Below are positions 1,277 through 33,325 of a DNA stretch of 33,548 nucleotides, in pieces; position 1 is the stretch's first letter; each line of letters begins with the position of its first letter. The position numbers and the translations under genes are program-made. The notes under the pieces were generated by a model that saw only the letters and a program-made list of their open reading frames with translations, did not search any database and had not been told where the DNA came from. The DNA comes from a virus: the IMG/VR virus record IMGVR_UViG_3300046007_002096, positions 1-33,548 of that record; one strand, 5' to 3'.

Positions 1277-3001
1277 TTACTCTATTGGTGGTATATTGTC
1301 AGGAGCGATGTCCAAAATACTTGATAATGGTTGCGCCGATGGAATCACCTTTTCAGAATTATTAAAGTATATATCTGATTGATTGTTGATGAATCCCGAA
1401 ATTTGTGATTGATCTGTATTTGTGAATCCTGTCTCTGTTCTAACATTAGTTGAGATTCTTACCCAAATTTGTCCATCCCAACGGTATAATATTTGCGGAA
1501 AATAATCTATACGTAAAAAGTAATCTCCCACTTGAGGGTTTTGTGGGAAAGCGATACCGGCGCCGCTCGGTAAGCCGTTCGGAGGAATCGCATCACCTGT
1601 CAGATAACCTGCGCTGTATCCAAAACTACGAGGACTTGCGCGAGTGATATATTGGAATGCAGGATCACAGTCAGCACGCCAGTCCATCTGTGTGCTAATC
1701 GTTCCAGTAAATCCTGGCTGTGTAGGATCAGCATCAGCAGTAGCATAAGTATTATCCGCTGTACCGTATGGCCCAGTAACTGGGCCCATTGATTGTACTG
1801 TTAGATACTTGTCACCTTGCAATGCTCTTGTACCTGAACCTTCTTTTAACACATGCGGTTTAGTTTCACTTACTTCTAAATTAGCCTGAATAAATTTATC
1901 AAACTTATCTGACAAATCGCTGTCAGCAGTCATATCCCAAATACTTTTGATAACGTCTTTGCTGATTCTTAAACCGACACTAGGATTTTTAAACTTGGGG
2001 TTACGCATATAAACTACCGTCGCGTAACTTCCAGTTTGTGGCGCGCCGCCGCTATAAGTAACTACATTAACAGGTGGAGCTGGCTGATCTAATTTATCAG
2101 ATAACACACCATTACTTTGGTATATACCATATGTAGGAACAACATATAGATCATTATTGTTGTATCCTGCTTTAGGTACAATACGCTTTGCTTCTTGTAG
2201 TTGAGCATCGTTGACTTGTAAATTTTTATTGTAAGTTGATAAAATGTCTTTTAGATTTTGTTCTGTACTTAATTTCCAATATTCCTCATTAGGCGGTGCT
2301 ATGCCGGCAGGAACTTCTTTTATTGATTCATAATTCTTGTCGCCGTAACTGATAATATATCCAGGCGGATAAACTTTATTCTTGTCCCAATCTCCAAGAT
2401 AGTTGTCTTGATTGATTGGCTCTTTGAGTATGTTGCTAAATTCTTGGCTATCAACTAATGGCTCACACTTGATGCGCCATAGATGTGGATACCAAGTTTG
2501 ACTAAATCCTTCACTTGCGAAGTTTGCGTCTGTAATCTGATAGAAACGTTTTAGCGCAACCGGTATCGTTTCATTAAGAGGATTATAATCAAGCAAGTGC
2601 GGTAGTTCAAGAACGTCGCCCACCATAAGTTTTCTACCAACGATGTCGATCATGTCATTGTAGTGAACGGTTATGAAAATTATGTCATTATTCAAGAATA
2701 AGCCGAATTGGCTTAGATCGAAATCTAGGTTCTGTACATTATAATGACCACGCAATCTATAAATGTTCGTGTCGTACTTCCTATCACGATTTTCTAAAAA
2801 CAGTAAGTCCTGTATCTGTAATGGATCTGGACTTATATATTGGGGTTGTGTATAGTCTACGCTGGGGGTCTGAGCGACTGGACCTATGTATTTGTGAATA
2901 TATAAATCCGTACCACCAACAGTAAATTGCTCTGAAATTACCTTATCAAAGTACTTATAATCGTTGGATTTTGTTGGATGATACAGCGACAGTTTGGGCA
3001 T
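1277..3001 (-). CDS. gp14: gp14-like neck protein, enlarged
   Basis: This is a 574-residue neck protein, counted from the ATG at 3001 (MPKLSLYHP). A TTG eight codons upstream is in frame but lies across the promoter-like CTAAATA box, so the ATG is preferred. T4 gp14 (256 residues) helps close the head after packaging and forms the neck with gp13. Residues 1-190 match the gp14 layout, with YISPDPL near 55, MVGDVLELPHLLDYNP near 126 and a YQIT...W.P..WRI segment near 154-177. The C-terminus (GDYFLRIDYFPQILYRWDG, then a SGFINN motif) resembles the long gp14 of marine T4-like phages. Residues 203-243 look like a CBM5/12-type carbohydrate-binding module. It heads a minus-strand pair with gp15 and has a late-type box five bases before the ATG. 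Confidence 0.8.
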   Translation of the reverse strand: MPKLSLYHPTKSNDYKYFDKVISEQFTVGGTDLYIHKYIGPVAQTPSVDYTQPQYISPDPLQIQDLLFLENRDRKYDTNIYRLRGHYNVQNLDFDLSQFGLFLNNDIIFITVHYNDMIDIVGRKLMVGDVLELPHLLDYNPLNETIPVALKRFYQITDANFASEGFSQTWYPHLWRIKCEPLVDSQEFSNILKEPINQDNYLGDWDKNKVYPPGYIISYGDKNYESIKEVPAGIAPPNEEYWKLSTEQNLKDILSTYNKNLQVNDAQLQEAKRIVPKAGYNNNDLYVVPTYGIYQSNGVLSDKLDQPAPPVNVVTYSGGAPQTGSYATVVYMRNPKFKNPSVGLRISKDVIKSIWDMTADSDLSDKFDKFIQANLEVSETKPHVLKEGSGTRALQGDKYLTVQSMGPVTGPYGTADNTYATADADPTQPGFTGTISTQMDWRADCDPAFQYITRASPRSFGYSAGYLTGDAIPPNGLPSGAGIAFPQNPQVGDYFLRIDYFPQILYRWDGQIWVRISTNVRTETGFTNTDQSQISGFINNQSDIYFNNSEKVIPSAQPLSSILDIAPDNIPPIE

Positions 3002-3006
3002 AGTAG

Positions 3007-3013
3007 TATTTAG
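3007..3013 (-). promoter_or_regulatory. late promoter box CTAAATA for gp14-gp15
   Basis: CTAAATA reads on the minus strand and ends five bases before the gp14 ATG. It resembles the T4 late -10 box (TATAAATA) with C in place of the leading TA. The spacing would place the transcription start on the A of the AUG. No Shine-Dalgarno is seen, which fits a leaderless message. Confidence 0.55.
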
Positions 3014-3040
3014 TATAAAAATCAATGACTTACAAAGGTA

Positions 3041-5672: not shown

Positions 5673-6458
5673 ATGTCAGCGGACCCACTTTCAGTTCCAA
5701 CAAATGCTAATCTACAGCAACTAAAAGAAACGATGTTCAATAACCTAAGATTGCGCTTAGGTGGTGACATCATTGATTTAGAGTTGGACCCACAGCACTA
5801 TGAAGCCGCTTACGATTATGCTATTAAAATTTATCGTCAACGCGCTCAAAATGCTACTATTGAAAGTTACACGTTGATGACTATCATAAAGAATGTTGAT
5901 ACATATACTCTTCCCTCTGAGTACATCAACGTTCGCGCCATTTTTCGTAGAACAGTAGGTCTAGAAACTGGTCCAAGTTCGACATCATTTGATCCATTTA
6001 GTAGCGCGATATTAAACACCTATCTCTTGAATTATAACTATACAGGTGGCATGGCTACATATGATTTCTATGCGGGCTATGTCGAGTTGGCAGCCCGTAT
6101 GTTCGGTGGTTATGTGACATATACATTCAACCCTGTAACAAAAGTATTGCGTGTTGTGCGTGACTTTAAGGGTACCGGCGAGCGTGTATTGATCTGGGCT
6201 GATATGATCAGACCAGAAACAGAATTATTACAAGATCCGGGTGCAGGTGTTTGGATCGCTGATTTCATATTAGCACAATTAAAAATTATTATCGGTGAAG
6301 CCCGCGAGAAGTTTGGAACTATTGCTGGACCGGGCGGTGGTACTACCCTCAATGGCGGTAACATGAAGGCAGAAGGCAAGGCAGACCAAGAAAGATTGCT
6401 TGAAGATTTACGCAGATATCAAGATTACAGTCAACCATTAACTTGGATTCAAGGTTGA
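5673..6458 (+). CDS. gp13: gp13-like neck protein
   Basis: This 261-residue protein resembles the gp13 neck proteins of marine T4-like phages. It has an N-terminal NLRLRLGGDIIDLELDPQHY segment (25-44) followed by an alpha-helical YDYAIKIYRQRAQ, a LPSEYINVRAIFR strand near 79-91, and a C-terminal half with NPVTKVLRV and ADFILAQLKIIIGEAREKFG. In T4, gp13 (309 residues) forms the head-to-tail gate together with gp14. The last residues (YSQPLTWIQG) recall the family's hydrophobic tail. A late box lies at 5643. Here gp13 is separated from gp14 by the early operon and lies on the opposite strand. The family call is good; the length is shorter than T4 but normal for marine relatives. Confidence 0.75.
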   Translation: MSADPLSVPTNANLQQLKETMFNNLRLRLGGDIIDLELDPQHYEAAYDYAIKIYRQRAQNATIESYTLMTIIKNVDTYTLPSEYINVRAIFRRTVGLETGPSSTSFDPFSSAILNTYLLNYNYTGGMATYDFYAGYVELAARMFGGYVTYTFNPVTKVLRVVRDFKGTGERVLIWADMIRPETELLQDPGAGVWIADFILAQLKIIIGEAREKFGTIAGPGGGTTLNGGNMKAEGKADQERLLEDLRRYQDYSQPLTWIQG

Positions 6459-6483
6459 CATCCCCTTAAAATTTTATTATACT
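6455..6483 (+). promoter_or_regulatory. sigma70-like promoter, leaderless geometry (dNMP kinase)
   Basis: TTGACA (6455-6460, overlapping the gp13 stop codon) and TATACT (6478-6483) are 17 bases apart. Only six bases separate the -10 box from the ATG at 6490, so the expected start of transcription is the A of the AUG. No Shine-Dalgarno is possible on such a message. Confidence 0.8.
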
Positions 6484-6489
6484 GTATAC

Positions 6490-7107
6490 ATGATTGTAGG
6501 TATTGCTGGTTTTATTGGAAGCGGCAAAGATACTATTGCCGATTATCTAATCACGTTTAAGGGTTTTAAACGTATGAGTTATGCTGGTCCGCTCAAGGAT
6601 GCAGTAGCTGCTATCTTCAATTGGGATCGTGAATTACTTGAAGGTACTACTCACTATAGCAGAGAGTGGCGCGATACGGTTGATACTTGGTGGGCTGAAC
6701 GTTTAAATATACAACATTTGACGCCACGTTTCGTATTGCAGCAATGGGGTACAGAAGTAGGACGCAGGGCGTTTCATGATGATATTTGGATCGCTAGCGT
6801 AGAGAATAAACTACGCACGATTAAAGATAATATTGTTATAAGTGACTGTCGTTTTCCTAATGAATTGCGTAGCATCAAAAACGCCGGGGGCATTACTATT
6901 AGGGTCAATAGAGGTCCCAACCCCGAATGGTATGATGCCGCACTTCAATATAATCGCGGTAACAAACACGCTAAGTCTATATTAGAGGAGTATAACATCC
7001 ATGCTAGTGAATACAGCAGTGTTGGTCTTAATTATGATTACTATGTTGATAACAGCGGCACAGTAGACGAATTACATCGTAAGGTCGACTCAATAATCAA
7101 CTTGTAA
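6490..7107 (+). CDS. deoxynucleoside monophosphate kinase
   Basis: This is a 205-residue P-loop kinase with Walker A GFIGSGKDT at residues 7-15. It also has YAGPLKDAV near 36-44, a LLQQWGTEVGRR-type segment near 82-93 that matches the dNMP kinase family around T4 gp1, and VISDCRFPNE near 116-125. T4 gp1 (241 residues) phosphorylates dGMP, dTMP and hydroxymethyl-dCMP to diphosphates for phage DNA synthesis. Here the base specificity cannot be read, and no sign of modified cytosine synthesis is in this window. It is a single gene behind its own sigma70-like promoter, so it is expected early. Its last 18 bases overlap the end of the antisense zinc-ribbon gene. Confidence 0.82.
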   Translation: MIVGIAGFIGSGKDTIADYLITFKGFKRMSYAGPLKDAVAAIFNWDRELLEGTTHYSREWRDTVDTWWAERLNIQHLTPRFVLQQWGTEVGRRAFHDDIWIASVENKLRTIKDNIVISDCRFPNELRSIKNAGGITIRVNRGPNPEWYDAALQYNRGNKHAKSILEEYNIHASEYSSVGLNYDYYVDNSGTVDELHRKVDSIINL

Positions 7108-7443
7108 GTCACCGCGCTTCCAAGTCACTTCTTTGCGTTTAACCACTTCTACGCAATTCAAACATATAGTTCTTAAGTTAGATAATTTGTTATTTTTTAA
7201 GTCCCCGTCTATATAGAACACAGTCATTTGTGTAGGATATATGCTTTTAAATCCGCATATATCGCAATAGTTTTTCTTTTTATAACCTGACTTTTCCCAA
7301 GAAAACTGTTTGGACTTAAGTTTGGGTTTCTTTTTACCGCATTGGTCACATAAACTTCTATAATGTGTAACCCCCTCACGTATATAGTTTATAGCCCTAT
7401 AATGCTTGTTACACTCTTTACACATTGGTCTAGTGATAGGCAT
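7090..7443 (-). CDS. HNH-like zinc-ribbon protein, antisense
   Basis: This 117-residue basic protein has four CxxC knuckles (C8/C11, C32/C35, C60/C63, C94/C97). Between the last two is an HNH-like core, FYIDGDLKNNKLSNLRTIC, in which Tyr-Ile-Asp-Gly stands where HNH nucleases have the catalytic His (HHID or HHxD). Related small proteins occur beside tail sheath genes in marine T4-like phages and are sometimes labelled HNH endonuclease. Loss of the His makes nuclease activity doubtful; a DNA- or RNA-binding role fits as well. The gene is convergent with the dNMP kinase (18-base overlap) and divergent from the tail sheath. Its ATG follows a CTAAATA box by five bases, the same spacing as gp14. 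Confidence 0.75.
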   Translation of the reverse strand: MPITRPMCKECNKHYRAINYIREGVTHYRSLCDQCGKKKPKLKSKQFSWEKSGYKKKNYCDICGFKSIYPTQMTVFYIDGDLKNNKLSNLRTICLNCVEVVKRKEVTWKRGDLQVDY

Positions 7444-7448
7444 AAAGA

Positions 7449-7455
7449 TATTTAG
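7449..7455 (-). promoter_or_regulatory. late promoter box CTAAATA (zinc-ribbon gene)
   Basis: CTAAATA on the minus strand ends five bases before the ATG at 7443, the same box and spacing as at gp14. The expected transcript would begin at the AUG. It lies back to back with the tail sheath promoter. Confidence 0.55.
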
Positions 7456-11148: not shown

Positions 11149-11156
11149 TATAAATA
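11149..11156 (+). promoter_or_regulatory. late promoter box TATAAATA of gp19
   Basis: An exact late box ends five bases before an ATG at 11162. That ATG opens a four-codon ORF rather than gp19 itself, which begins at 11178. Confidence 0.7.
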
Positions 11157-11832: not shown

Positions 11833-13086
11833 ATGTCTTGGGGTGGATACAATAAAGGCTATTGGGCCGAACAATTGCAAAATGCCCTCGGTGCTTTCAT
11901 AGGAACACCGGGGGCTCCTAGTGGGGCATATCTAAGAGATTTTCGCCATGCTGCAAAAACTTTTGTAAGCGACACTTATGCTCTCGCTCCTAAATTCAAG
12001 TTTCTTTTTCACACATATTTTAATATTAATCCAGCTGCTCTTGATTCAACGATGACAGCAAATTTTAGTAATTATGGATTATTAGTCAAAGATATAAGAT
12101 TACCTAGCTATCGTTTTGCGACACATACACTAAATCAATATAATCGCAAAAGAATTGTTCAGACTAAGATCAATTACGATCCAGTAGAAATTACTTTTCA
12201 TGATGATAACAGTAACGTTATAAACAAGTTGTGGTATGCATATTATACATATTATTATAAAGATGCTGCTAAACTATCAAAAAATCCAGGTAGTAACACA
12301 ACTCAAAGCACACAAGCAGATTTTAATACAAGAAATACTTATAGTGATGATGCGCAAGGTAGTTTTGACTGGGGATATGTAGGCGAGATAAGCACAAATG
12401 CATCCGGCGCAAATACTAAAAAACCTTTTTTTAATAATATAACTGTGTATGGATTTAATCAACACCAATATATTGCTTATCAATTAATAAATCCAATGAT
12501 TGCAAATTTTGCTCACGATTCTTATGATTACGATCAAGGTAACGGAGTGATGCAAAATCGTATGACTATAGAATACGAAACAGTGCAATATTACGAAGGT
12601 GCATTCAATGGTGAAACATTACCTAATATTGAGACAGGTAACTTTGCTGATGCAGCAAATTATGATAGAGAATTAAGTCCTATCACTGTTCCCGGAGCTA
12701 ATGGCAAGATATTAGGTCAGGGTGGGTTCGTAGACGGTATAGGTGGTTTTGTAAATGCATTAGGCGATAAAAATATTTTAGGTGCCATAAAGATAGCAGG
12801 TGCCACTTATAACAATTATAAATCATATAATGCAAAAACCGCGCTTAAACAAGAAGCTGAAAATTTACTATTAGGCGCCTTAGGTCAGTTAAAAGTAGGA
12901 CCTACAATACGTAATCAACAAACACAAACTCCTGTAAAACAAGAGACACCTACAAACAATGGTGCAGGTTCACCTACAATATCTAATGGTTCACAACCGG
13001 GCGTAGTAGGAGGAGATCCAACAGCAGGTTCTCAAGTACCTTCTACCACTTCACCGCGCCAACCTAGAGTAAGAGGACCAATCTAA
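11833..13086 (+). CDS. tail-tube-like structural protein (possibly gp54-type tube initiator)
   Basis: This 417-residue virion protein has a tube-fold flavour. KFKFLFHTYFNIN near 55-67, LVKDIRLPSYRFATHTLNQY near 86-105 and KINYDPVEITFHDD near 113-126 parallel the order of strands in gp19. A second set follows (FNNITVYGFNQHQY, then MTIEYETVQYYEG). T4 has two enlarged tube-fold proteins, gp48 and gp54, that start the tube on the baseplate, and the arrangement here is closest to gp54. The C-terminal 110 residues are Gln/Thr/Pro/Gly-rich and probably disordered. It starts 19 bases after gp19 without its own late box, so it is co-transcribed. The structural class is fairly sure; the exact T4 equivalent is not. 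Confidence 0.6.
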   Translation: MSWGGYNKGYWAEQLQNALGAFIGTPGAPSGAYLRDFRHAAKTFVSDTYALAPKFKFLFHTYFNINPAALDSTMTANFSNYGLLVKDIRLPSYRFATHTLNQYNRKRIVQTKINYDPVEITFHDDNSNVINKLWYAYYTYYYKDAAKLSKNPGSNTTQSTQADFNTRNTYSDDAQGSFDWGYVGEISTNASGANTKKPFFNNITVYGFNQHQYIAYQLINPMIANFAHDSYDYDQGNGVMQNRMTIEYETVQYYEGAFNGETLPNIETGNFADAANYDRELSPITVPGANGKILGQGGFVDGIGGFVNALGDKNILGAIKIAGATYNNYKSYNAKTALKQEAENLLLGALGQLKVGPTIRNQQTQTPVKQETPTNNGAGSPTISNGSQPGVVGGDPTAGSQVPSTTSPRQPRVRGPI

Positions 13087-13887: not shown

Positions 13888-13895
13888 AATAAATA
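13888..13895 (+). promoter_or_regulatory. late promoter box AATAAATA of gp16
   Basis: A one-mismatch late box overlaps the end region of gp4 and lies four bases before the ATG at 13900. A start of transcription at the AUG is expected from the T4 spacing. Confidence 0.6.
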
Positions 13896-20152: not shown

Positions 20153-22540
20153 ATGGCACAGCAGAATATAGATTTCGGTAGTTTTCCCGATGATCCAGAT
20201 GCAGATGCGATACGCACTGCGTTTGAAAAAGCACAAGAAAACTTTAATGAATTATATCAATTACAGACATCTAGCGGCGTCTTATCCATCAATCGTGCCA
20301 AAAAAGAGAAGGGCTTAACCGTAAATCCCACTTTTGGTAATGTTATCATCAGTAACGACTTTTATCAACTAAAAGTAAAAACACAAAGTTTAGGCGTAGG
20401 ATTAACTCCAGGATCTGAATTAGATCAAATCATTATCGATTCAGGGTTGTCAAATCTATGGATTGATTTGCTTGACAATACAGTTATCAACGAATCACTA
20501 ATTATAGGCAATATAAGCCCGGGCAATCCTAATGTCACAATTGCTAACGGCAATGTTGTAGCGACAAACAACATCACAGCAACAAACTTTTTCGGTAATG
20601 TAGGAAACCTAACTACTCTTAACGTTACAGGTAACATATTAGCAAATAACATAACTAGCAACGCTAATCTTGCTGTGGGTAATGTTATCACAGCTAATAT
20701 TGCTAATATTTCTAATACTGTTAACGCGGCAAATATTAATGCTTCAAATGTTGTAAGCACTTCAAATTTAACTGTTACGAATACAGCCAATATTGCTACA
20801 GCAAATGTCACTGGATTATTGACAGCAGGAAACATAATATCCGGTAACGCAAATTTAGGCAATCTTGCTCAAGCAAATTTTGTCAATGCATCATCAGTCA
20901 GCGCAGGCAATGTACGCACTGATAACTTGTTATATGCAAATGGCCTGCCTTGGGATTTACAATATCCAGCTGGCGGCGCAGGTCAAATTCAATATAATGA
21001 TGGTAGCAATAATTTTGCAGCAAGTCCTAATTTGATTTTTGATGCCGCTAATAGTAATTTAAATGTGACCGGTAATGTTAACGCAACATATTTTGTTGGT
21101 GACGGTGGCGGATTATCAAATCTATCTATCGGTAATATTACCGAAATTGAAAACGGTTCATCAAATATTCGCGTATACCCTAATAGTAATGTTACTATTT
21201 CAGTAAACGCACAACCAAACGTAGTACAATTTGGACAATTACAAACAACGTTTGCTACAGATATTCTCGCAAATGGTCATGTTGGATATATAGATGAAAT
21301 TTATTTAAATGTTGAACTAACAACACCTAATTTACATGTGACTGGTGGCATAGCAAATTTAGGTTATGCTAATAAAGTTCAAATATTTGGTGGCGCATCA
21401 GGACAAGTATTAACCACAGACGGCATCGGAAATCTAACTTGGGGTATAGGTGGCATAGGCGCTACCGGCGCTACTGGTCCACAAGGCGCTACAGGTATAG
21501 GCGCTACCGGCGCTACTGGTCCACAAGGCGCTACAGGTCTCGGTGCTACTGGTGCTACTGGTGTTCCTGGAGCGACAGGTGTTCCTGGTGCTACTGGCGA
21601 TAGATATTTCACAACAAGTAATACATCACTTACTATCGCTACCGGACCAGCAACATTGACAGTAGGTATAGGTTTAGCATACGCTACCGGTCAAGAAATT
21701 TCTATTGCGCATAGTTTAGCGCAACGTATGTTTGCTACTGTTGCCGCATATAACAGTGCAACAGGAGTGATGATAGTTAGCGTATCTAGTGTAGTAGGCA
21801 CATTAGGTAATGTGTACAGTAGTTGGCAGGTAAATCTAGCTGGAGCGGCAGGTATACCTGGTAGCACAGGAGCGACTGGCGCTACTGGTGTAGCAGGTTT
21901 AGTTGAAGGACCTACTCAACCCGTAGATACAACTGTATTATGGTATGATACAAGTACACCTGGCATAGATGGTGTAGGTGCTACAGGTCTTACAGGTGCG
22001 ACAGGTCCTTCAGGTGGCCCAACAGGAGCAACAGGTGCTACTGGTCCTGCATTGTCTAATGCTACTACTATCGATATAACAAATACAAATGGGTTAACAA
22101 CAACATATTATCCTACATTTGTTGAGAACAGAACAACTAATCAGATTTTGCGTGGAGATGTTGATCTAACATATCGCACAGATACTAATACTCTGACGAC
22201 AGAAAATATATCTTTAAGTGGTAATTACTTAAGAAGTGTAGCGACTGGTATTAGTGCTGCCGGATCAACACAAGGCACAGCGACAGCAATAACAAAAGAT
22301 ATAAACATTGTAAGCACAGTAAGTGCAGGGCAAGGTATTGTATTACCTACAGCAATTGCAGGTATGGTAATCATAGTTAATAATACAAGCGCGACAAGTT
22401 TAAACGTATATCCAGCAACAGGCGCAACGATTAATACGTTGTCGACCAACACAGCTTATACTCATGTAGCCGGTGCAAGTTTACAGTACTTTGCTGTAAG
22501 CGCGACACAGTGGTATACAGTCGGAGCAAGTTACGCATAA
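20153..22540 (+). CDS. collagen-like tail fibre protein 1, 795 aa
   Basis: This 795-residue fibre has four parts. First, an N-terminal attachment region (about 1-70) with an R-x-A-F-x-K-A-x-x-N-F-N-E-L pattern that recurs in the protein at 27860. Second, a long Asn/Thr/Ala/Ile-rich beta-helix-like stretch (about 100-290, GNVxxxN-type repeats). Third, three Gly-X-Y collagen-like blocks (about 435-482, 566-582, 606-632) around a TTSNTSLTIATG...WQVNLAG domain. Fourth, a C-terminal domain of about 105 residues starting YLRSVATGISAAG and ending QWYTVGASYA. That C-terminus is shared with the next gene. Collagen-like phage fibres form trimers, and the tip domain is expected to contact the host or act as a trimer cap. 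It lies directly after a terminator with its own late box. Confidence 0.8.
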   Translation: MAQQNIDFGSFPDDPDADAIRTAFEKAQENFNELYQLQTSSGVLSINRAKKEKGLTVNPTFGNVIISNDFYQLKVKTQSLGVGLTPGSELDQIIIDSGLSNLWIDLLDNTVINESLIIGNISPGNPNVTIANGNVVATNNITATNFFGNVGNLTTLNVTGNILANNITSNANLAVGNVITANIANISNTVNAANINASNVVSTSNLTVTNTANIATANVTGLLTAGNIISGNANLGNLAQANFVNASSVSAGNVRTDNLLYANGLPWDLQYPAGGAGQIQYNDGSNNFAASPNLIFDAANSNLNVTGNVNATYFVGDGGGLSNLSIGNITEIENGSSNIRVYPNSNVTISVNAQPNVVQFGQLQTTFATDILANGHVGYIDEIYLNVELTTPNLHVTGGIANLGYANKVQIFGGASGQVLTTDGIGNLTWGIGGIGATGATGPQGATGIGATGATGPQGATGLGATGATGVPGATGVPGATGDRYFTTSNTSLTIATGPATLTVGIGLAYATGQEISIAHSLAQRMFATVAAYNSATGVMIVSVSSVVGTLGNVYSSWQVNLAGAAGIPGSTGATGATGVAGLVEGPTQPVDTTVLWYDTSTPGIDGVGATGLTGATGPSGGPTGATGATGPALSNATTIDITNTNGLTTTYYPTFVENRTTNQILRGDVDLTYRTDTNTLTTENISLSGNYLRSVATGISAAGSTQGTATAITKDINIVSTVSAGQGIVLPTAIAGMVIIVNNTSATSLNVYPATGATINTLSTNTAYTHVAGASLQYFAVSATQWYTVGASYA
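21455..21538 (+). repeat. 42-base perfect tandem repeat, two copies, in collagen-like coding
   Basis: Units 21455-21496 and 21497-21538 are identical at every base, including the third codon positions. They encode [13 protein letters not shown]-type triplets. Perfect identity points to recent duplication by slippage or unequal recombination. Confidence 0.9.
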
Positions 22541-22550
22541 CATATAGGTC

Positions 22551-22558
22551 AATAAATA
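22551..22558 (+). promoter_or_regulatory. late promoter box AATAAATA of tail fibre 2
   Basis: A one-mismatch late box lies in the 28-base gap between the two fibre genes, ten bases before the ATG at 22569. No Shine-Dalgarno is visible. Confidence 0.55.
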
Positions 22559-22568
22559 GTAGAATATT

Positions 22569-24890
22569 ATGGGTGTATTAAAATATTACGATAGTTTGAC
22601 ATCAACATGGTTACCGGCTATAGCCGGTGTTCAAGGCGCTACTGGCCCAACAGGTGGTACCTACACCCACGAACAATTAGTGGCAGCATCAGTTTGGACT
22701 GTAAATCATAATTTGGGAGAGCGATATCTTAACGTTGAAGTAATTGATAGTGCAAATCAAAATGTAAGCCCTCTTACTTATCCTACTATAAGCTTTTTAA
22801 ATTCTAATACACTTACTATTACTTTTGCGTCACCGCAAACAGGATATGCCGCGATAAGTTATGGTGGCATGGGTGCTACTGGACCTATGCTTGATTATCA
22901 AACAAGCACAACAGCATCAATCAATCTAGAGATTCCGTCGACTATTTCTTGCACAGTAGATACCGGTTTACCCTACGTTGCCTTTCAAAATATTATTTTC
23001 ATTGCTGACGGTGAGACAGACAAATATATGACTGGTGTAGTTCAGTCATATAATATAGCGACAGGTGCATTAGTTGTAAATGTGACAGGTGGACAGGGTA
23101 GTGGTACTGGTCCTTATACGCCTTGGACAGTCAATATATTTACGCCAATGGGTGCTACTGGTTTAACTGGTGCGACAGGCGCTACAGGTTTACAAGGTGC
23201 TACAGGTGCAGCTGGCGGCGCATACATCCACACACAAAGTTCGTCATCGACAACGTGGAACGTAACTCACAATCTCAACAGTTTATATGTAAACGTTGAA
23301 CCAGTTGATAGCACTGGTAATAGTTTTGTAGGTAGATATGACTATCCTACAATTACATTCAATACGGCTAATACGCTTACATTGACATTCACAAGTTCAG
23401 TGACAGGTTATGCCGCTATATCAGCAGGTGGGCAAACTGGTGCGACCGGTAGTGGTGCTACTGGAGCGACAGGACTTACCGGTGCTACTGGTCCAAGCGG
23501 TGGACCAACAGGCGCGACTGGTGCAGGTAGTACAGGCGCGACAGGTATTCAAGGCCCGACTGGTGCTACAGGTGTTCAAGGTAGCACAGGTCCCGTAGGA
23601 AGTACTGGCCCAGAAGGTGCTACTGGAAGCACAGGGCCAATTGGTAGTACTGGTCCAATCGGTAGCACTGGACCTACCGGTGCTACTGGAAGCACAGGAC
23701 CAATAGGTAGCACAGGTCCACAAGGTGCTACTGGCATAGCGGGACCTACTGGTGCTACTGGGCCACAAGGATTTAGCACATCAGCATTCAATTATAGAAT
23801 AGAGGCTAGTGATATTACACCTCCACCAAATAGTGGTTTCATTGAATATAACAACGCTACACAGACATCATCAACAAATCTTTATATCAATCATCTAGAT
23901 AACGACAATATTGATATCAGCATTTTCTTGAACTTATTACAAGCCACAGAAGTATTGACTATACAAGATAGCACTAATGCTGCTAATTTCCAACAATGGA
24001 CTATTACTTCAGCGGTAACAAATAATGGAACATATCATACTATTCCTGTAACATTATTAGCGAGCGGTGGTACTGGTACATCAGGTTTCGCTAACAATCT
24101 CAATGTCATATTAGCATTGACAAATGGTGTGACTGGTGCGACTGGATTGACAGGTAGCACTGGTGCAACTGGCGTCATTGGACCAACTGGTGCGACTGGA
24201 TTGACAGGTAGCACTGGACCCGAAGGTGCTACAGGTAGCACTGGACCAATAGGTAGCACTGGACCACAAGGAGCAACAGGACCTATAGGAGCGACGGGTA
24301 GCACAGGACCAGAAGGAGCAACAGGACCTATAGGTGCGACAGGTAGTGCAGGTGTTGCTGGTGGTTCTAATACACAAGTACAATTTAATGATGCTGGTTC
24401 ATTTGGTGCAGATGCTAATCTAACATTCAATAAAACAATTGGTAGATTAAGTGCTACTCAATTAACCGGCACAGTAACAACAGCCGCACAGCCTAACATT
24501 ACTAGTGTCGGTACGTTAACATCATTAACATCATCAGGTAATATCAGCGGCGCAAACGTCATAGCATCAGCATACCATATACGTTCAGTGGGTACAGGCA
24601 TATCTGCCGCAGGTGGTAGTCAAGCCGGTGCTACTTTATTAACAAAAGAAATTAACGTGGTGAGTACTGTAGGTTCTGGTGAGGGAGTGCTTTTACAAAC
24701 AGCAGTTGCAGGTATGACAATTATTATAACTAACAATGGTGTAAACCCACTTAGCGTGTATCCAGGAATAGGGGCACAAATAAATACGGGTGGTGCAAAC
24801 GCTGCCTACTCACAACCGTCAGGTTCTACGTTGCAATTTGTAGCCATAGCAACTACGCAATGGTATACAGTTGGCGCAACTTATGCTTGA
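22569..24890 (+). CDS. collagen-like tail fibre protein 2, 773 aa
   Basis: This 773-residue fibre is a paralogue of the preceding one. It has two copies of a domain of about 70 residues (about 35-103 and 218-290) with the pattern W-x-V-x-HNL, NVE, YPTI-x-F, NTLT and TGYAAIS. Collagen-like Gly-X-Y blocks lie at about 194-217, 287-400 and 523-598. A domain between the first HNL copy and the first collagen block ([13 protein letters not shown]...WTVNI) corresponds to the one in fibre 1. The C-terminal domain ([13 protein letters not shown] to [10 protein letters not shown]) matches fibre 1. Collagen blocks are longer than in fibre 1, so the shaft is probably longer. The next gene starts eight bases after its stop. 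It is likely a trimeric tail fibre or whisker for host attachment. Confidence 0.8.
23437..23772 (+). repeat. collagen-like Gly-X-Y coding repeat, long block
   Basis: More than a hundred residues of G-A-T, G-S-T, G-P-x and G-P-I triplets, built from nine-base units. Triplet order varies but many units are identical at DNA level. It makes the region prone to length change. Confidence 0.85.
24130..24362 (+). repeat. collagen-like Gly-X-Y coding repeat, second block of fibre 2
   Basis: Another run of GAT, GST and GPx-type triplets (about residues 522-598), including repeated copies of [10 protein letters not shown] and STGPEGATG. It leads into the N-terminal side of the tip region. Confidence 0.85.
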
Positions 24891-29392: not shown

Positions 29393-29925
29393 ACATACAA
29401 ATAGAAAAAGATTTTACATTTATGACTGCCATTCACTTTGAATCAAAGTACATGGTAAATCTATATGAGATGAATGCAAAAATGGAAGTTTGTACTGAGG
29501 ATGTGCGCGAACAAAACATCGCCATTGAACGTATGAATTACTTTCTTACAGGCCAAATCGAAGATGTCATATTTGTACAAAACACTGAAAAAGAAGCTAT
29601 ACAAAATTACACAAACGCTGGTATAAAAGTTTGCATAGTACCAGAAGAACCTTACGATCAGATAATAGGGATGTTACTTGTAAACAAATGTAATGCTATC
29701 ATGGAAGGTAGGATAGTAATTACTGATATTACTTTTGGTAGTAAATTGAGTAATTTGATAAAATTTAACATACAAGGCGAGATCGCTAAACTTGAATACC
29801 CGGAAGATTCTTGGTATAATAAAAATACTCTAGCATTAGCAGATAAAAATAAAAAAGAAAAAATCGTGACCCTTTTTGATAAAAATAATTGGGCAGAACT
29901 AGAATTGACTTGGAAGCAGAAATAA
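29389..29925 (+). CDS. conserved hypothetical protein, 178 aa
   Basis: This 178-residue soluble mixed alpha/beta protein runs FMTAIHFESKYMVNLYEMNAKMEV, then AIERMNYFLTGQIEDVIFVQ, VCIVPEEPYDQIIGMLLVNKCNAI, and a Lys-rich C-terminus ending in LFDKNNWAELELTW. I do not recognise the family. It is translationally coupled to the preceding 78-aa gene (ATGA). Its last codons contain the -35 box of the promoter for the DnaE-like gene. A regulatory or nucleic-acid-related role is possible, but nothing visible proves it. Confidence 0.6.
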   Translation: MNIQIEKDFTFMTAIHFESKYMVNLYEMNAKMEVCTEDVREQNIAIERMNYFLTGQIEDVIFVQNTEKEAIQNYTNAGIKVCIVPEEPYDQIIGMLLVNKCNAIMEGRIVITDITFGSKLSNLIKFNIQGEIAKLEYPEDSWYNKNTLALADKNKKEKIVTLFDKNNWAELELTWKQK

Positions 29926-29933
29926 TTTAAAAT
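29905..29933 (+). promoter_or_regulatory. sigma70-like promoter, leaderless geometry (DnaE-like gene)
   Basis: TTGACT (29905-29910) and TAAAAT (29928-29933) are 17 bases apart, with six bases to the ATG at 29940. This is the same geometry as at 6455 and 31139. The -35 box lies inside the coding end of the preceding gene. Confidence 0.75.
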
Positions 29934-31138: not shown

Positions 31139-31167
31139 TTGACATTGTTCAATCGTTATAATAAACT
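31139..31167 (+). promoter_or_regulatory. sigma70-like promoter, leaderless geometry (gp44)
   Basis: TTGACA (31139-31144) and TAAACT (31162-31167) are 17 bases apart, with six bases to the ATG at 31174. A TATAAT also occurs at 31157-31162, but its distance from TTGACA (12 bases) is too short. Confidence 0.7.
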
Positions 31168-31173
31168 GTTCGC

Positions 31174-32097
31174 ATGAAAAATAATCTCTGGGTAGAAGCA
31201 TACAGACCTAAAACTGTTGCCGAATATGTTTTTGTTGATCAAAAGCAAAAAGATATGGTAACAAACTGGATCAAGGACGAGAGTTTCCCTCATTTGTTAT
31301 TGAGCGGAGATCCCGGCACAGGCAAGACAACGTTAGCAAGGGTCTTGATTCAAGAATTAGGTATTGAAGATTTCGACGTATTCGAAGTCAACGCATCACG
31401 CACAAGAGGCATTGATGTAATACGTGATCAAATAAACAGTTTCGTGCAGACTATGCCGTTCGGCAAGTTCAAGGTAGTGCTGTTAGACGAAGCGGACTAC
31501 TTAACACCTCCGGCGCAAGCCGCCTTGAGAAATGATATGGAAGCGTATCACATGACAGTACGCTATATCCTGACTTGTAACTATGGGTACAAGATCATTC
31601 CTGCACTAAAGAGTCGCTGTCATGAGATGCATATCGCTAATACTGATATCACAGAATTCACAGCAAGAGCCGCCACAGTACTCGTAAGTGAAAACGTAGT
31701 GTTCGATCTAGATGTACTTGATACTTATGTACGTGCTACTTATCCAGACTTGCGTAAGTGCTTAAATCAATTACAAGTTAACAGTCAAACAGGAACACTA
31801 CTTGCTCCGGATAACGCTACGTTTAGCGAAGATGCTTTATTGGTAAAAGCAACAGAATATTTTAAATCTGGTAATATTGTTGATGGCAGACAAACACTAC
31901 AAGAATATATCAAAACATACCCTACAAGGGCTGAGGATATATACACTTGGATGTATGATAATCTAGATTTATGGGGTAAGGATAATCAAAGTAAAGATAA
32001 TGCTATCATTACTATACGAAATGGTCTAGCAAATCTAACATTAGTGGGTATTCCTGAGATTGCTATCGCAGCAACTATGATTGAACTTACGTCATAA
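31174..32097 (+). CDS. gp44: gp44-like sliding clamp loader ATPase
   Basis: This 307-residue AAA+ clamp loader subunit has LWVEAYRPKTVAEYV at the start (typical of gp44/RFC), Walker A GDPGTGKT (45-52), Walker B VVLLDEAD (101-108), sensor 1 LTCNY (133-137) and an SRC motif (147-149) with the arginine finger. In T4, four gp44 and one gp62 form the loader that places the gp45 clamp on DNA for replication and for late transcription. The length is close to T4 gp44 (319). The gene after it is not an obvious gp62. It has its own sigma70-like promoter with the leaderless spacing. Confidence 0.93.
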   Translation: MKNNLWVEAYRPKTVAEYVFVDQKQKDMVTNWIKDESFPHLLLSGDPGTGKTTLARVLIQELGIEDFDVFEVNASRTRGIDVIRDQINSFVQTMPFGKFKVVLLDEADYLTPPAQAALRNDMEAYHMTVRYILTCNYGYKIIPALKSRCHEMHIANTDITEFTARAATVLVSENVVFDLDVLDTYVRATYPDLRKCLNQLQVNSQTGTLLAPDNATFSEDALLVKATEYFKSGNIVDGRQTLQEYIKTYPTRAEDIYTWMYDNLDLWGKDNQSKDNAIITIRNGLANLTLVGIPEIAIAATMIELTS

Positions 32098-32100
32098 ATA
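32093..32100 (+). promoter_or_regulatory. late promoter box CATAAATA (92-aa gene)
   Basis: A one-mismatch late box overlaps the gp44 stop codon and lies five bases before the ATG at 32106. Confidence 0.55.
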
Positions 32101-33317: not shown

Positions 33318-33325
33318 GATAAATA
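33318..33325 (+). promoter_or_regulatory. late promoter box GATAAATA of the right-edge gene
   Basis: A one-mismatch late box lies four bases before the ATG at 33330, the same near-zero leader seen at 13888 and 27834. Confidence 0.6.

Follow-up and report, generated by a model that had tools for sequence, protein, structure and literature searches.

The window, i.e. the whole 33,548-nucleotide stretch analysed here (IMG/VR virus record IMGVR_UViG_3300046007_002096, positions 1 to 33,548), carries three genes, for a deoxynucleoside monophosphate (dNMP) kinase, a DNA polymerase III alpha-like (DnaE-like) protein and the clamp loader subunit gp44, each with a sigma70-like promoter directly ahead of the start codon:

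6455–6460, plus strand: −35 box TTGACA of the dNMP kinase promoter, overlapping the stop codon TGA (6456–6458) of the upstream gene
6478–6483, plus strand: −10 box TATACT, 17 nt after the −35 box and 6 nt before ATG6490
6490–7107, plus strand: dNMP kinase (phrog_139, PF21448), predicted leaderless early gene
29905–29910, plus strand: −35 box TTGACT of the DnaE-like promoter, within the end of the upstream gene
29928–29933, plus strand: −10 box TAAAAT, 17 nt after the −35 box and 6 nt before ATG29940
29940–30446, plus strand: 168-aa DnaE-like protein (phrog_11127, PF07733), predicted leaderless early gene
31139–31144, plus strand: −35 box TTGACA of the gp44 promoter
31162–31167, plus strand: −10 box TAAACT, 17 nt after the −35 box and 6 nt before ATG31174
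31174–32097, plus strand: gp44 clamp loader subunit (phrog_168), predicted leaderless early gene

A sequence-only reading of this DNA had claimed a fixed geometry at the three sites, and a scan of the whole window bore this out: the pattern TTGAC(A/T)-17 nt-TANNNT-6 nt-ATG was matched at ATG6490, ATG29940 and ATG31174 with no further matches, and TTGACN-N17-TANNNT-N6-ATG was found three times on the plus strand, not at all on the minus strand and not at all in the reversed control. It is the spacing that the sites have in common, and not the TATACT motif named in that reading, which occurs at the kinase alone. About 0.03 sites were expected per window from first-order Markov simulated genomes (Poisson P ~6e-6); as the pattern was defined post hoc, after the sites had been seen, the relatives were used as the real test. 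The spacer between the hexamers is 17 nt at all three sites, within the 16–18 nt taken for sigma70. The −10 boxes before ATG29940 and ATG31174 are imperfect, that of gp44 keeping four of six consensus bases, so that the exact TTGACA/TATAAT consensus with a free gap had no match in the window. A better TATAAT lies ahead of gp44 at 31157–31162 with a spacer to the −35 box of only 12 nt; relatives retain the gap-6 hexamer.

Since a −10 hexamer occupies −12 to −7, the 6-nt gap puts the predicted +1 on the A of the ATG. The start codon is ATG at all three early sites and no Shine-Dalgarno (SD) sequence stands ahead of it. The start codons of the leaderless candidates are fixed by protein homology: the P-loop of the kinase falls inside its first ~14 residues, so near the N-terminus that a translation start further downstream is impossible, and the DnaE-like relatives align from residue 1. 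The 168-aa DnaE-like protein itself gives a partial domain match (PF07733 positions 19–94, with a GRGS motif), and phrog_11127 proteins are common to many jumbo phages.

Searching 15 related IMG/VR genomes (2.84 Mb) yielded 76 pattern matches versus one for the reversed-pattern control, and in eight genomes 51 matches were observed versus 1.6 expected from simulated first-order Markov genomes, confirming that the recurrence is unlikely by chance, as had been proposed. The 150-kb record G001 contains copies of the three window genes at 99–100% identity, and has these three sites plus four others; several members of the group are fragmentary. Independently of gene calls, the distance from each sigma70-like promoter to ATGs opening at least 60 codons was then determined in eight genomes (1.71 Mb), and this revealed 37 cases at gap 6, six each at gaps 5 and 7, otherwise ~2 per gap up to 18 with almost nothing at 8–18, and a second broad hump at gaps 27–35, which is that of ordinary leaders. 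The gap-6 peak was present in all eight genomes, and was absent from them when GTG, TTG, CTG, ATA, ATC or AAG was put in place of ATG. The spike and the near-empty gaps up to 18 thus indicate that a promoter of this kind either sits immediately before the start codon, at a single fixed distance, or is far enough away for a leader to fit between. The same distance test gave no gap-6 peak in T4, cyanophage P-RSM4, PA5oct or RaK2. The annotated early members comprise dNMP kinase, gp44, thymidylate synthase, two exonucleases and a primase; the assignment of the class to DNA metabolism therefore stands for all three window genes, and across the lineage for many, not all, of the annotated early members. 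In an arbitrarily drawn set of IMG/VR contigs, perfect sigma70 promoters likewise peaked at gaps 6 (13) and 7 (9) among the 46 matches listed whose ORF had 50 codons or more, and leaderless early genes may be common among environmental phages.

Conservation of the 6-base gap, named beforehand as a check, was examined family by family. For the DnaE-like protein, 50 non-redundant upstream regions were collected, 37 had a scorable promoter and 35 of these lay at gap exactly 6, against 0.06 expected from shuffles; the most conserved columns of the upstream alignment are the two hexamers, not the bases immediately before the ATG, and all 38 leaderless members fall within one supported clade of 44 rows in the tree. 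Similarly, phrog_11279 had gap 5 or 6 in 13/13 regions. Across these two families, the kinase and gp44, almost nothing was found at gaps 7–14. The other two window families keep the gap in part. Among 34 scorable kinase relatives, 11 had gap 6, 22 had a gap of 19–29 nt, often together with an SD, one had 15 and none 7–14; well-supported branches of the kinase tree require at least five changes of leaderless state, so that the same two solutions have been reached repeatedly in different lineages. In this family the −35 box is conserved partly because the stop codon of the upstream gene lies inside TTGA. For gp44, gap 6 was kept in seven of 12 scorable relatives, while many relatives had no promoter at that place. 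Many orthologues retain their class at 40–95% identity.

The sequence-only reading had also supposed a dedicated early class of three. The early class is real, but it comprises more genes than three, and a larger late class accompanies it, with five candidates in the window. The T4 late motif is present in many upstream regions of the window, and those bearing on the start codons, with two contrasting leadered cases at the end, are:

33318–33325, plus strand: late promoter GATAAATA, 4 nt before ATG33330
33330–33548, plus strand: virion structural protein family (phrog_12928), predicted leaderless late gene, cut by the window end
13889–13895, plus strand: late promoter ATAAATA, 4 nt before ATG13900
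13900–14373, plus strand: phrog_16202 family protein, predicted leaderless late gene
7449–7455, minus strand: late promoter CTAAATA, 5 nt before ATG7443
7090–7443, minus strand: HNH-endonuclease-like 117-aa protein, predicted leaderless late gene, its 3′ end antisense to the kinase
3007–3013, minus strand: late promoter CTAAATA, 5 nt before ATG3001
1277–3001, minus strand: virion structural protein (phrog_11591), predicted leaderless late gene
32094–32100, plus strand: weaker late candidate ATAAATA, 5 nt before ATG32106, overlapping the gp44 stop codon
5643–5650, plus strand: late promoter TATAAATA with an ordinary leader, 22 nt before ATG5673
11149–11156, plus strand: late promoter TATAAATA with a leader containing GGAG, 21 nt before ATG11178

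When TAAATA-to-ATG distances were tallied over the eight genomes, peaks appeared at 4 (47 cases) and 5 (81 cases), with ~6 per gap at 8–15 and a second rise at 17–25. The T4 late promoter box occupies −13 to −6 (PMC1524935), so a gap of 5 would set +1 on the A of the ATG; as the late gaps are divided between 4 and 5, no unique +1 is predicted for the late class. The boxes are TATAAATA-like, with a variable first base (G, C, A or T, not always T). The virion family of ATG33330 had the box at gap 4–5 in 44/46 diverse upstream regions and phrog_16202 in 26/35 relatives, the HNH-endonuclease-like gene is late-leaderless in G002, G005 and G012 too, and the ATG32106 candidate is common only to the close relative G008. 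For the minus-strand ORF at 1277–3025, the start is most likely ATG3001, directly after the late promoter, and not TTG3025. Virion proteins belong to the late set, as does the terminase large subunit in G001 and G008. A relative of the gp55-type late sigma is encoded in four of the eight genomes (G002, G003, G005 and G013) and was not found in the partial genomes G001, G007, G008 and G012. In the virion gene family of ATG33330 (e.g. L472–L551) the late promoter is almost always GATAAATA, the corresponding T4 sequence being TATAAATA and that of Aeh1 CTAAATA. The late class was examined in this lineage and four control phages, and the two leaderless classes together make up ~5–13% of called genes in these genomes.

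An SD of at least 4 nt was detected in 0–25% of early leaderless, 0–29% of late leaderless and 41–58% of other genes, and the first 40 nt were less structured in the leaderless candidates (p 0.02 for early, 2e-6 for late), the gene calls being crude so that the ‘other’ genes in both comparisons include wrong starts. Ribosomal protein bS21, which has a possible link to SD-independent translation, is encoded in G001 (L244, G001:9110–9265), G002, G005, G007 and PA5oct, not in G003. Phage bS21 was rejected as the cause, in that PA5oct has bS21 without the class and G003 has the class without bS21. Escape from the T4 translational repressor RegA was dropped as an idea as well, RegA being found in T4 only.

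Altogether, we consider it very probable that two promoter classes, one read by host sigma70 and the other by a phage gp55-type sigma, have been joined directly to start codons, so that the mRNAs made from them are leaderless; 70S ribosomes would probably initiate on the 5′ AUG of these mRNAs. At the early genes, host sigma70 RNA polymerase would bind TTGACA/TATAAT and start on the A of the ATG, leaving no leader; such a class had been claimed beforehand, and geometry and conservation support it with predicted starts. At the late genes, the gp55-type sigma would act from the ATAAATA or CTAAATA box 4–5 nt before the ATG. Most likely, judging from the literature, a 70S ribosome with initiator tRNA would then bind the 5′-terminal AUG, with no leader or SD needed. 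In E. coli, 70S ribosomes bind a 5′-terminal AUG, the AUG being required and a 5′ AUG sufficient, and a peak with ATG only fits this published need (PMC4965119). The analysis itself establishes the geometry, its conservation, the shortage of SDs, the near-empty gaps and the gp55 relative in four of the eight genomes, whereas where the transcripts begin and how ribosomes enter are inferred. The same phages also carry ordinary leadered genes.

Coincidence with compact packing, where short intergenic spaces bring promoters near starts and no selection places +1 on the A, would agree with the short intergenic gaps before leaderless genes and with the boxes that overlap upstream stops at 6456 and 32095, but it predicts a spread of gaps, while a one-position spike at 6 followed by near-empty gaps 8–18 was observed, and T4, PA5oct, RaK2 and P-RSM4 lack such a spike; we regard it as extremely improbable. 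Equally improbable is that the sites are promoters for downstream genes only, with the adjacent ATG translated from longer upstream transcripts: same-strand upstream genes are close, making read-through likely, but the fixed distance to the ATG is left unexplained and the ATGs would lie in longer transcripts without an SD. Somewhat less remote, though still unlikely, are real promoters giving messages with one to three extra 5′ nucleotides, or several starts, that are translated by another SD-independent route; the six cases each at gaps 5 and 7 beside the 37 at gap 6, and the split of the late gaps between 4 and 5, accord with such near-leaderless messages, but that gap 6 and ATG dominate speaks for the importance of exact placement.

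Why promoters would be fused to start codons may have to do with space saving, with translation when 30S initiation is limiting, or with silencing of read-through transcripts. Concerning the last, a design in which the fusion makes translation depend on the message’s own promoter, the same with host sigma70 and with the phage late sigma, is a speculative idea that we hold to be rather doubtful: an upstream read-through transcript would hold the ATG internally without an SD and so be silent.

Leaderless messages are already known, and what is new here is the promoter-fused starts in early and late genes of T4-like phages. The lambda cI message from PRM is likewise a phage message, one that 70S ribosomes bind at its 5′-terminal AUG (PMC4965119; first discovered in lambda, PMC3160421), but it concerns one repressor gene of a temperate phage, whereas the present case involves many genes, early as well as late, in a T4-like lineage, as predicted from sequence. 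The bacterial TANNNT leaderless genes of Actinobacteria and Deinococcus-Thermus similarly have a −10 box ~12 nt before the start and no 5′ UTR (PMC3160421, PMC12340547); those are cellular, while the phages here retain the full TTGACA-17-TATAAT and add a second class with a phage-encoded sigma. T4 late promoters (gp55, TATAAATA) have the core motif in common with those found here, and this group also codes for a gp55 relative, but the T4 box-to-ATG distance has no peak at 4–5 and its commonest gap is ~28. Pseudomonas phage PA5oct is the closest named phage by gp44 (49% identity) and has the same order of DnaE-like, chaperonin and gp44 genes, but shows no peak at gap 6 or 4–5, and its DnaE-like gene, whose start overlaps the gene before it, has no promoter of this kind there. 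Three same-geometry promoters do occur in PA5oct (NC_071039) at 12831, 65629 and 248668, with ATGs opening ORFs of 3–6 codons, possibly 5′-terminal AUG mini-ORFs. Megablast of the window’s first 25 kb against named phages returned a short mazG match only, and two long proteins with collagen-like repeats at 20153–24890 are perhaps tail or fibre proteins. A Burkholderiaceae host was not retained, since the virion-protein search of genome contigs gave one weak MAG match, which is too little. A literature search, with most subscription journals outside it, found no such class reported in T4-like phages, which is weak evidence of novelty.

Leaderless messages tend to be regarded either as curiosities of individual phage genes or as something typical of particular bacterial phyla. 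In this widespread lineage of large, uncultivated T4-like phages, predicted leaderless genes are maintained both early and, unexpectedly, late, in a near all-or-none manner with gap 6 or a full leader. If the insulation by silent read-through were true, early genes inside late clusters, for instance the kinase, which lies between virion genes, would be separated in time. The rule predicts transcript starts to the base and corrects start codons, and these phages offer a natural system for following the fate of leaderless messages in the infected cell.
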